The notes beneath the pieces were generated by a model. That model had not been told where the DNA came from. It searched no databases and was given only the letters and a program-made list of their open reading frames with translations. 64,000 nt of DNA, taken from assembly GCF_002153425.1 (NCBI RefSeq), contig NZ_KZ119600.1, positions 2,239,222-2,303,221 of the forward strand, written 5' to 3'. This DNA is from Litchfieldia alkalitelluris (GTDB lineage Bacteria > Bacillota > Bacilli > Bacillales > Salisediminibacteriaceae). The translations under genes and the position numbers were made by a program. Shown here one piece after another: positions 40,080 through 44,821 of the stretch (within the stretch, counting starts at the first letter, position 1; each line of letters starts with the position of its first letter).

Positions 40080-40502
40080 ATGTCTGAGAAGATTTTAACT
40101 ACAAAAGCAACTGTAAAAGGTGGACGTGAAGGTCATGTGAAATCTGATAATGGTGTGATTGATCTTGATCTATCTATGCCAAAGGGAAGTGAAATACCAC
40201 CTGACACAACTAATCCAGAACAGTTGTTTGCTGCTGGATACGCAGCGTGTTATGATGGAGCATTAAACCTAATGGCCTCTAGATCAAAAAAGACAATAGA
40301 TTCAACAATAGAAGCTGAGGTGAGTTTATTAAAAGATGAAAGTGATGGTGGATTTAAAATAGGAGTTACTTTACATGTAAATATAAGTGGAGTATCTCAA
40401 GCAGAAGGCGAAGAGCTTGCTCAAAAAGCACATGAGTTCTGTCCATATTCTAAAGCAACAAAAGGTAACATAGATGTTAATTTGGAAGTGCATGCAAGCT
40501 AA
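40080..40502 (+). CDS. ohr: Ohr-type organic hydroperoxide reductase
   Basis: A 140-residue OsmC/Ohr family thiol peroxidase that reduces organic hydroperoxides. The two redox cysteines are Cys57 (AAGYAACYDGAL) and Cys121 (HEFCPYSKATKGN), both in the exact Ohr context. The length is typical. GGGAGGAG precedes the ATG. No OhrR gene is adjacent and I see no clear OhrR box upstream. A compact terminator follows. Confidence 0.92.
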   Translation: MSEKILTTKATVKGGREGHVKSDNGVIDLDLSMPKGSEIPPDTTNPEQLFAAGYAACYDGALNLMASRSKKTIDSTIEAEVSLLKDESDGGFKIGVTLHVNISGVSQAEGEELAQKAHEFCPYSKATKGNIDVNLEVHAS

Positions 40503-40518
40503 TTAAATAACAAACTTA

Positions 40519-40548
40519 ACTACCGTAGCATTATGCGGTAGTTTTTTC
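40519..40548 (+). terminator. Terminator of ohr
   Basis: AACTACCG (40518-40525) pairs with CGGTAGTT (40536-40543), followed by TTTT. Confidence 0.85.
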
Positions 40549-40688
40549 TATATAAATTGGTAAGTTGAAAAAGAAGGGAAATCAAAGCATTTTTATTGAT
40601 TAATATTTAAATTCGTGCAATAATTCATACTAAACACATATGAATAATTATATACCTATTTTTTTGTTGGAAAGAGAGGTTGATATTT

Positions 40689-41105
40689 ATGAAGGGAATT
40701 CCCGTAACTTTAGTGAAGGCTAATCAATTAATGTTAGTGTTGTTAACTTTAACTTCTATACTTTTTCAAAATATTTATATTGTTATGTTTACCTTTGGTT
40801 TAATAGTGTTATCACTTATTTTTGGACCGCGTGCTAATGTTGCTATGCAGATTGCCAAATGGGTAATAAAAGACCTTAAGAATGATGAGACAGAAGCTGT
40901 TGTATTATTAAGATTTAATCAGATTATTGCATCGTCTCTTCTATTCATTGCAATAATTACTTTTTTGATTACGCAGCATTGGATAGCTTGGGTGTTCGTC
41001 GGCATGGTGACTGTAGCAGCTAGTATCGCTCTCGCGGGCTTTTGTATAGGGTGTTTTTTATATTATCAATATAAAAGACTTCTATATAAATCCTCACAAA
41101 GTTAA
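40689..41105 (+). CDS. DUF4395 family membrane protein
   Basis: A 138-residue protein of the DUF4395 family. Hydrophobic segments cover about 10-48, 75-100 and 103-128, with a basic loop, FGPRANVAMQIAKWVIKDL, between. The family hallmark GFCIGCFLYYQYKR lies near the C-terminus, with a CxxC-like cysteine pair in the membrane boundary. The ATG at 40689 has AGAGAGGT 8 bases upstream. Function unknown. Members often occur near thiol or redox genes, and ohr is the preceding gene. Confidence 0.75.
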   Translation: MKGIPVTLVKANQLMLVLLTLTSILFQNIYIVMFTFGLIVLSLIFGPRANVAMQIAKWVIKDLKNDETEAVVLLRFNQIIASSLLFIAIITFLITQHWIAWVFVGMVTVAASIALAGFCIGCFLYYQYKRLLYKSSQS

Positions 41106-42633: not shown

Positions 42634-43680
42634 TTATTCAATATTTATATAAATGGTGTCTATGGCGTTGTAACCATAACCTTTTTGATTCCAATATGCT
42701 CTAAATGGCTGTGTAGAACCAGTACTATCAGTTGCTTTTGCCCGAATGGAGTAGTGACCTTTATGTTTAACCTTCCACTTATAGCTCCAAGGTGTCCATG
42801 TATAGCCTTGACTGTTTTTCTTTAAATCAGCACTAATCCATTCACTATCATTAATACTAACGGCAACTTCTACTATTTTTCCTTTTCCCGACCAAGATAT
42901 CCCTTTAATTTCATGCTCTCCAACTCCAAGTTTTGAAAAGTTTAATGGTTGTTGAATAGTAGTATTAACATTTACGGTTGTTACTGGAAAGGCATTATCT
43001 TTATTGGTTTTATTTGGATAGTAAACATAGTCATCTGTCTGGAAAGGGCCAGAGAAAGGTTTTTCTACGAGGTAAATATTTTTTAACCACTTAACAGAGG
43101 CCATTGCATACCATTGAGGCACAATTAATCTTAATGGTCCACCCCGTTTAAAAGATAGGGGACTCCCATTGTATTCATAAGCAATTATGGTATCTGAGTG
43201 GAGGGCCTTTGATATGGGAAGACTCCTTATAAATGAGGCATGTTTACCATCTGGCCTTTCACCGAAATCATATCCTTCGAAAACAACTTCTTGGACATTT
43301 GATTTTATTCCTGTATATTTAAACAATTCATTTAAGGTAATCCCTCTCCATGTCCCTTGACTAATAGCCCCATTTTCCCACTGTTCGCCGTAAACTCTCG
43401 GTTCAAATTTAGACCGTTTATTTCCTGCACATTCAAGCATAACTTTTAATGATTTACTTTTCATTTGTTTAAAATGCTCAAAGTGAAAAACTAGGGGTTT
43501 ATATACTTCACCGTATATTCGGAGTGAAATTTTACTGTTTAGTGTTGGGTAAGGGAAGTGATTACGTATAAAGAATAAATTTTCTGAAGTAGATAGGCTT
43601 TTTAAAAAATGTATTGGTGACTCCTGGACTTCTGGGTCTGTGCTACGCGTAGTCCTAAAAAGTCTATTCTTGTCGTTCAT
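42634..43680 (-). CDS. Sulfite-oxidase-family molybdopterin enzyme
   Basis: A 348-residue protein with an oxidoreductase molybdopterin-binding domain (about 45-220) and a Mo-co dimerisation domain (about 230-348). The Mo-ligand Cys84 sits in MLECAGNKRS. The substrate-side motifs YEYNGSPLSFKRGGPLRLIVPQWYAMASVKW are present. There is no signal peptide or twin-arginine motif, so it is probably cytoplasmic, unlike many sulfite oxidases. It starts 24 bases after the TGA-containing peroxiredoxin and has its own GAGGAGG. The two are probably cotranscribed. Confidence 0.88.
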   Translation of the reverse strand: MNDKNRLFRTTRSTDPEVQESPIHFLKSLSTSENLFFIRNHFPYPTLNSKISLRIYGEVYKPLVFHFEHFKQMKSKSLKVMLECAGNKRSKFEPRVYGEQWENGAISQGTWRGITLNELFKYTGIKSNVQEVVFEGYDFGERPDGKHASFIRSLPISKALHSDTIIAYEYNGSPLSFKRGGPLRLIVPQWYAMASVKWLKNIYLVEKPFSGPFQTDDYVYYPNKTNKDNAFPVTTVNVNTTIQQPLNFSKLGVGEHEIKGISWSGKGKIVEVAVSINDSEWISADLKKNSQGYTWTPWSYKWKVKHKGHYSIRAKATDSTGSTQPFRAYWNQKGYGYNAIDTIYINIE

Positions 43681-43704: not shown

Positions 43705-44334
43705 TTAATATTTCCCAATGTCTGATGGATTAGGTTCAATTCCGTTTAATCCAGGTACCCAGTTGGCAGGTACGCCTTTGCCAGTACTTTCATTGTATTG
43801 TATGCCTTTCACCATTCTTAGTAACTCCTGAGCGTTTCTTCCTATTTCTTTAGGATAAATCATTTTAGATTCAATAATTCCTGTTGGGTTAATGATCAAT
43901 GTTGCCCTATATGCAGCTCCCGATCCTTCATCCAATACGCGATAGGCTCTACTAATCCAATGGTTACGATCACTCACTAGTGGATATGTAACTCTACTAG
44001 CTGCGGCCGATGTTTCAGTAAATACTTTATGGGAGTATACACTATCAGTACTAATTCCAAGAACTTCTGTATTTATGGCGTTAAACTCATGATGATGAGC
44101 AGCAACTGCTGCTAGTTCAGTAGGTCATACAAAAGTGAAGTCACTGCCATAAAAAAATAAAATAAGCCATGAACCACGGAATTGATCAAGTCTAATTTTC
44201 TTTATACTTCCATTAACATATGATTCTGCTTCAAAAATAGGAGCAATATCACCTAAGGTTGCCTCAAAAGTTCTTGGATACTTCTGTAATTCTTCAACCG
44301 TTATTATATTTTTTTCATATCCATGTTTATTCAT
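43705..44334 (-). CDS. Candidate selenocysteine peroxiredoxin (in-frame TGA at codon 70)
   Basis: One continuous frame of 209 residues interrupted only by TGA at 44127-44125, in the context FTFV-U-PTELAAVAAHH. In AhpC/Prx1-type peroxiredoxins that position is the peroxidatic cysteine of FTFVCPTE. Everything after it is intact: LGISTDSVYSH, YPLVSDRN, SRAYRVL, the NPTGIIESK strand and GVPANWVPG near the end. No other Cys occurs in the protein, so without selenocysteine it would have no catalytic thiol. The ATG at 44334 has GGGAGGTG at 6-base spacing. Peroxiredoxins are an established selenoprotein family. Standard callers would report two fragments (44125-44343 and 43705-43977). The alternative is a nonsense pseudogene. 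Confidence 0.8.
44098..44113 (-). promoter_or_regulatory. Candidate bacterial SECIS of the peroxiredoxin gene
   Basis: Starting 11 bases after the UGA, AGCAGC-AGUU-GCUGCU folds as a perfect 6-base-pair stem with a 4-base loop whose second base is G. The loop begins 18 bases after UGA. These values fit the general bacterial SECIS pattern (hairpin inside the coding region just after UGA, G in the first two loop positions). Confidence 0.6.
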
Positions 44335-44564
44335 TACATACACCTCCCATGTTCAATGTTATAACTAATTGATATATATTCCACTTTTAAGGATTATTTA
44401 CTGATTTTTTCAGGACATCAAGACAAGTTCGTAACATAACGACTTTCACAGCAGCAATACTAAAAAAATATAGTATGATTTTAGACTGTCGTGTAGGGGG
44501 TTGAGTTGACTTGGATAAATATAACATTCATATATTTCTTAAAGCCATAAACAATAGGACTACA

Positions 44565-44614: not shown

Positions 44615-44821
44615 ATGGCAACAAACAACAACAACTCAAACAATCTTGTAGTACCTGGAGTGCAACAAGCACTTGATCAAATGAAATATGAGATTGCACA
44701 AGAATTTGGTGTAAACCTTGGGCCAGATTCTCCTGCACGAGCAAACGGGTCAGTAGGTGGCGAGATTACTAAGCGCCTAGTACAACAAGCAGAGCAACAA
44801 TTCGGTGGACCAAAAGCTTAA
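44615..44821 (+). CDS. Alpha/beta-type small acid-soluble spore protein
   Basis: A 68-residue DNA-binding spore protein. It has the family core [46 protein letters not shown], including the GPR germination protease site region YEIAQEFG (about 29-36). It saturates and protects spore DNA, and is degraded at germination. A strong AAAGGAG ribosome site and an immediate terminator fit a highly expressed single gene. Its presence shows the organism forms endospores. Confidence 0.97.

Follow-up and report, generated by a model that had tools for sequence, protein, structure and literature searches.

A probable AhpC-type peroxiredoxin selenoprotein of Bacillales and Clostridia with a UGA codon at the peroxidatic position

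A 64-kb stretch of DNA, referred to here as the window, was found to contain a gene that very probably (roughly 0.94) encodes an AhpC-type peroxiredoxin selenoprotein in which the peroxidatic residue 70 would be selenocysteine (Sec). The decoding of a UGA codon as Sec had been proposed in an earlier note on this DNA and is supported by conservation of the codon in relatives, by the presence of the Sec machinery in the same genome and by a covarying hairpin. Two findings that the note had named as contrary to its proposal, a genome lacking tRNA-Sec or SelB and close relatives with Cys at this codon alongside other disabling mutations here, were sought, and neither search gave an adverse result. 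The features of the locus are as follows.

43705..44334, minus strand: putative Sec-containing AhpC-type peroxiredoxin gene (translation with TGA read as U, PF00578 match, AlphaFold model)
44125..44127, minus strand: in-frame UGA at codon 70, the peroxidatic residue, presumptively read as selenocysteine (TGA kept in homologues)
44098..44113, minus strand: candidate SECIS hairpin with a 6-bp stem and the loop AGUU (fold, covariation, model fit)
44341..44348, minus strand: GGGAGGTG, which we take to be ribosome-binding-site-like, 6 bases 5' of the ATG (from the sequence)
42634..43680, minus strand: gene for a sulfite-oxidase-like molybdopterin protein (PF00174, 6.3e-46), 24 bases downstream of the peroxiredoxin stop

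The peroxiredoxin gene starts with an ATG at 44334..44332, ends with a TAA stop at 43707..43705 and comprises 209 codons plus the stop. The strand, absent from the earlier note, is the minus strand; the plus-strand frame from 43705 is full of stops. Translation with TGA read as U bore out the description of a 209-codon AhpC-type frame whose sole break is the TGA at codon 70, and yielded one U, zero further internal stops, zero Cys and no other lesion. When all six frames of the window were scanned for stretches interrupted by a single in-frame TGA (40 or more codons ahead of the TGA and 60 or more behind it, with less than 40% overlap by any other ORF of at least 100 codons), only the peroxiredoxin gene was returned. 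The encoded protein matches PF00578 (AhpC-TSA) at 2.3e-34 and 118.4 bits against a cut-off of 26, and its best sequence matches are solved 2-Cys peroxiredoxins. In an alignment with one of these, Prx3, U70 pairs with the Cys of FTFVCPTE, and it likewise pairs with a Cys in the single Cys-containing homologue (L045) described below. Structure prediction with AlphaFold from alignment A1, which drops L065, L067, L077, L084 and L086 from the 33 loci of a contig scan, gave a mean pLDDT of 83.9, and the top Foldseek match of the model was human Prx3 (5jcg, E 2.6e-20). The protein is divergent, with an end branch of 0.43-0.55 in trees; it stays under the cut-off in all 11 NCBIfam families that it matched, and its match to PF10417 (1-cysPrx_C) is barely above the cut-off (21.9 vs 21.1).

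Residue counts were taken over 62 rows, the short L086 having been dropped from the 63 rows that were read. Thr67 is kept throughout, with Ser in a single row, and Arg143 and Arg166 are identical in 62/62 rows; Thr67 and Arg143 are presumably catalytic residues. The claim that the protein lacks a resolving Cys extends to the whole group, as the position equivalent to residue 188 (Val188 in the window protein) is never Cys in the 62 aligned rows, L045 included. In the PxxxTxxU motif the window protein has Gly63 in place of the active-site Pro, which is present in 9/62 rows of the group. In the excerpt of PMC13188914 this Pro is described as highly conserved. Despite Gly63, fold and profile place the window protein in the peroxiredoxin superfamily.

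Conservation of the UGA codon was assessed in a set of 199 related genomes that includes the window's own, and 30 matches were obtained at E <= 1e-45. Since all 30 were read individually, it could be established that TGA rather than Cys occupies codon 70 in close relatives, a point the earlier note had left to be checked: 29 matches contain one TGA and one contains Cys. A search of 397 genomes from the order, in part the same as those of the 199-genome set, gave 53 matches, 52 with one TGA and one, the same Cys form, with none; for 41 of the 53 matches the codon itself was read, and the remaining 12 were classified by stop count. A separate contig scan returned TGA in 33/33 loci, some of which share a genome with one another or with the 199-genome set. 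The gene for SelA occurs in 108/199 genomes, among them 29/29 TGA carriers, and is absent from the Cys carrier (Fisher 3e-9, kinship uncorrected). Retention of this UGA by many relatives within Bacillales and Clostridia argues for a genuine selenoprotein. The family is present in 22/135 sampled genera of the window's order and would appear broken in these genera if UGA recoding were disregarded. Two records of the family were observed in unusual settings. A Sec peroxiredoxin (L072) filed under the title Lutibacter sp. B2 (Bacteroidota) groups with clostridial rows in the tree and may represent a misnamed or contaminated assembly, or a transfer. In Cytobacillus spongiae the gene (L134, L135) lies on NZ_CP089998.1, a 690-kb replicon called a plasmid that also has dpaA.

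The genome from which the window is taken (4.88 Mb, 6 contigs) was searched for selA, selB and tRNA-Sec as a possible refutation, and all three are present, as is selD. Matches were scored at 446 bits for SelA, at 389 bits (above the cut-off) for SelB and at 414.9 bits against a cut-off of 125 for SelD (TIGR00476). The tRNA-Sec scores 55.1 bits, above the cut-off of the RNA family model, and ARAGORN also calls a tRNA-Sec with the anticodon TCA. As a measure of specificity, tRNA-Sec exceeded the cut-off in 5/14 control genomes and SelA in 2/14. ARAGORN called no tRNA-Sec in the 64-kb window or in the selD locus L008; the gene sits outside both and was found in L009. All four genes are clustered within ~16 kb (C1:2555860-2571422). 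The selD gene (13376-14395 of L008, with a hand-chosen start) itself contains an in-frame TGA within AGUGCKI, codon 7 reading from MSSKAG, and the selenophosphate synthetase of this genome is therefore probably a selenoprotein too. Sec or Cys is usual at the corresponding SelD position. A second peroxiredoxin gene (L005, G000:C1:3884224-3884598, minus strand) was observed to have an in-frame TGA at the peroxidatic position, in FTPGUIKEI, and thus probably encodes another Sec peroxiredoxin; L005 scores under the cut-off in each of its three listed NCBIfam families. Other peroxiredoxins of the same genome, L003 and L004, are free of stops.

The hairpin downstream of the UGA agrees with its first description, a perfect 6-bp stem with a G-containing loop: the stem is AGCAGC/GCUGCU, the loop is AGUU, and exactly 11 bases lie between the UGA and the stem. 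The spacing from UGA to loop is 17 bases, and folding energies of -8.5 and -9.8 kcal/mol were calculated. With these values of loop, stem and spacing the element fits the bacterial SECIS model in the published excerpt of PMC13188914. Folding energy by itself was rejected as proof of a SECIS element: compared with shuffled sequences the z scores were -1.7 and -2.1, and 15/200 and 11/200 shuffles fold at least equally well, which is too weak. Strong evidence comes from comparison among relatives, since the tested pairs join silent third codon positions. It was collected from 73 distinct TGA rows, which remain of 81 rows after removal of 7 duplicates and the Cys row. The silent Ala75-Ala78 pair is kept in 73/73 rows as A-U (56), G-C (11) or G-U (6) and never as A-C, while the silent Ala76-Val77 pair, the N1-N2 loop pair, is G-C in 43 rows and A-U in 30, with nothing else found. 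When the pair states are mapped on a protein tree of 77 rows, the former pair requires 7 changes and the latter at least 4, so that these changes are read as repeated events. Codon usage follows the same pattern: Ala codons of the 5' arm are purine-ended in 116/116 cases vs 307/687 for Ala codons elsewhere in the 58 genes examined, and the codons for Val77 and Ala78 are pyrimidine-ended in 58/58 rows. The loop is GGUC or AGUU in 73/73 rows, the outer pair between Leu74 and residue 79 forms in 60/73 (hand sum), and the minimum free energy is at most -7.5 kcal/mol in 66/73. In 12/73 rows, 10 of them from the clostridial group, the best predicted fold does not reach -7.5 kcal/mol or is unlike the expected hairpin. 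At the protein level, all 29 rows of alignment A1 share the sequence ELAAVA after the Sec.

A lone TGA in an otherwise standard frame could also signal a pseudogene, in which a recent nonsense mutation has struck an ordinary Cys peroxiredoxin, and the stop-free peroxiredoxins elsewhere in the genome would be compatible with such a loss. This explanation is extremely improbable: the window gene carries no other lesion, the same TGA recurs in 29/30 homologues, at every locus of the contig scan and, as one TGA per gene, in 52/53 matches of the order, silent hairpin sites co-vary, and the TGA tracks selA. Given the conserved TGA and the co-varying silent sites, the pseudogene explanation is therefore rejected. 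Alternatively, the UGA might be read by a near-cognate tRNA as Trp or another residue, or a truncated product of 69 residues might be functional. Some UGA readthrough does occur in Bacillus, and the present case was built from nucleotide and predicted protein sequences. Nevertheless, this is very improbable as well, since the UGA stands where the family has its catalytic nucleophile, the presence of the gene follows selA, the sole homologue from a selA-lacking genome carries Cys there, and residues past this codon (Arg143 and Arg166, for example) are identical in all aligned rows.

A third alternative would refine the selenoprotein reading without replacing it. A Cys is found at the alignment position of window residue 24 in 45/62 rows (37/46 Bacillales, 8/16 in the clostridial group) and is missing from the window protein; the Cys-free state is thus not a family trait. 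Combined with the finding that no row has Cys at the classical resolving position, this suggests an N-terminal Cys that might serve as an unusual resolving thiol in most relatives and that would have been lost in the lineage of the window. We consider this possible but unlikely, because 10/62 rows, the window protein and the N-terminally cut L084 among them, are Cys-free apart from Sec, and because several N-termini rest on start codons chosen by script (those of L027, L036, L065, L067 and L077 are unsure).

With the selenoprotein reading favored, a mechanism can be outlined for the window protein. SelB and Sec-tRNA would insert Sec at the UGA, steered by the hairpin 3' of it. By analogy with peroxiredoxin chemistry, the selenolate would attack peroxide and be converted to selenenic acid, which would be reduced by an outside thiol, either thioredoxin or bacillithiol together with bacilliredoxin. 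Reduction from outside appears quite likely on the same chemical grounds, because the group has no resolving Cys and the window protein has no Cys at all. The genome contains a gene of the BshC family, which belongs to bacillithiol synthesis, and one of PF06491, presumably the bacilliredoxin family, so that bacillithiol with bacilliredoxin joins thioredoxin as a candidate donor.

The single Cys homologue, L045, reads CPTELAAMAA and comes from genome G023, in which profile and RNA model searches found no selA, no SelB and no tRNA-Sec above the cut-off. Another genome of the same genus, G026, has SelB and tRNA-Sec above the cut-off. The hairpin region of L045 has the loop AAUG, an A-C combination at the Ala-Ala pair and merely 2 contiguous pairs adjoining the loop. 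In a tree of 101 rows L045 is placed among Sec forms inside a Bacillales clade (61 rows, support 99/93), its exact placement being less sure (forks 92/91 and 94/93, branch 0.69). Because it sits within the Sec clade, L045 probably represents a reversion from Sec to Cys that occurred after or together with the loss of the Sec machinery. The excerpted 2006 survey (PMC1794560) gives no Sec-to-Cys event for peroxiredoxin.

Bacterial peroxiredoxins with Sec at the peroxidatic residue are, as the earlier note had stated, already known from PrxU, from COG0450, which we take to be the AhpC-type COG, and from survey counts. The curated PrxU family NF040737 is presumably named after the PrxU protein of Soehling et al. 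2001, reportedly a selenocysteine-containing, thioredoxin-dependent peroxiredoxin of Eubacterium acidaminophilum; that paper is cited in PMC8533274. The window protein resembles PrxU in its AhpC-type sequence, in Sec at the peroxidatic position and in the lack of Cys in the last 35 residues, which holds for 22/22 PrxU rows (22 of 30 loci retrieved). Membership in the curated family was ruled out by score, all five proteins scored lying under the NF040737 cut-off of 270 bits (160.6 for the window protein and 154.7-197.8 for four relatives). In the 101-row tree, which leaves out 8/30 PrxU loci and 2/17 loci of L087-L103 and contains only two Cys outgroup rows, both long-branched, the PrxU rows form their own clade (100/97) apart from the window group. 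The active-site Pro is found in 22/22 PrxU rows, whereas 53/62 rows of the window group are without it. Typical 2-Cys AhpC proteins (TIGR03137; Prx3 and AhpC structures) have the same fold as the window protein, which keeps Thr67 and Arg143 but differs in having Sec for Cys and Val188 for the resolving Cys, and which scores 161.6 against the TIGR03137 cut-off of 272. An annotated relative is WP_225003809.1, a 'peroxiredoxin' of the Cytobacillus spongiae plasmid NZ_CP089998.1 with 61.7% identity over 89% of the window protein, whose RefSeq CDS is already annotated through the same TGA; it differs in its N-terminal Cys, its GGUC loop and the lack of a sulfite-oxidase-like neighbour within 4 kb.

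Published surveys were consulted in excerpt. The available part of the Sargasso Sea survey (PMC1088965) reports 22 COG0450-type Sec peroxiredoxin sequences; these 'Prx-like' selenoproteins likewise have Sec, are marine metagenome sequences and were likened to the window protein by description only. A 2016 survey (PMC5029168) counts, in its excerpt, 91 Sec peroxiredoxins in 78 organisms, and a section of PMC3091704 places a Sec peroxiredoxin in Clostridium sticklandii. In a passage of a 2023 review (PMC10298544) peroxiredoxins are termed 'not selenoproteins'. The 2006 survey mentioned above describes, in the part available, Deltaproteobacteria and Clostridia as selenoprotein-rich and lists just 3 selenoproteins in Bacillales. 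A literature search for selenoproteins of Fictibacillus found no paper. Sec peroxiredoxins as a kind are already known; judged from the sequences compared, the window group is distinct from PrxU, with unusual active-site features. It appears somewhat probable that the group constitutes a separate clade of one-selenol peroxiredoxins in Bacillales and Clostridia from which the resolving Cys and, in most members, the active-site Pro have disappeared, and whose ELAAVA sequence has been frozen by the SECIS element within the gene. If so, G023 would be a natural experiment in which the machinery was lost, Sec reverted to Cys and the SECIS persists as a decaying fossil. Sec and Cys forms with and without the machinery would provide a clean test of the benefit of Sec to a peroxiredoxin that lacks a resolving Cys.

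The gene neighbourhood was also inspected. The downstream sulfite-oxidase-like gene is possibly co-transcribed with the peroxiredoxin gene. Its product matches the SorA, SoxC and SorT models far below their cut-offs (200.9 of 600 bits for NCBIfam SorA). A sulfite-oxidase-like homologue adjoins the peroxiredoxin gene in 1/80 loci (L025, from the same genus), many of the loci having only 1.5 kb of flank, and a conserved operon of the two genes was accordingly not seen outside the genus. Inspection by eye of the ORF lists around 10 homologues revealed no neighbour common to all ten; the related loci L063, L068 and L070 do have neighbours in common. Upstream, a divergent gene of 68 codons (window 44615-44821) encodes a small acid-soluble spore protein, as judged from its PF00269 match (4.2e-22). 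An OsmC-like gene is located together with a DUF4395 gene at window positions 40080-41105, a few kb from the peroxiredoxin gene; organic peroxides are frequent substrates of OsmC proteins.
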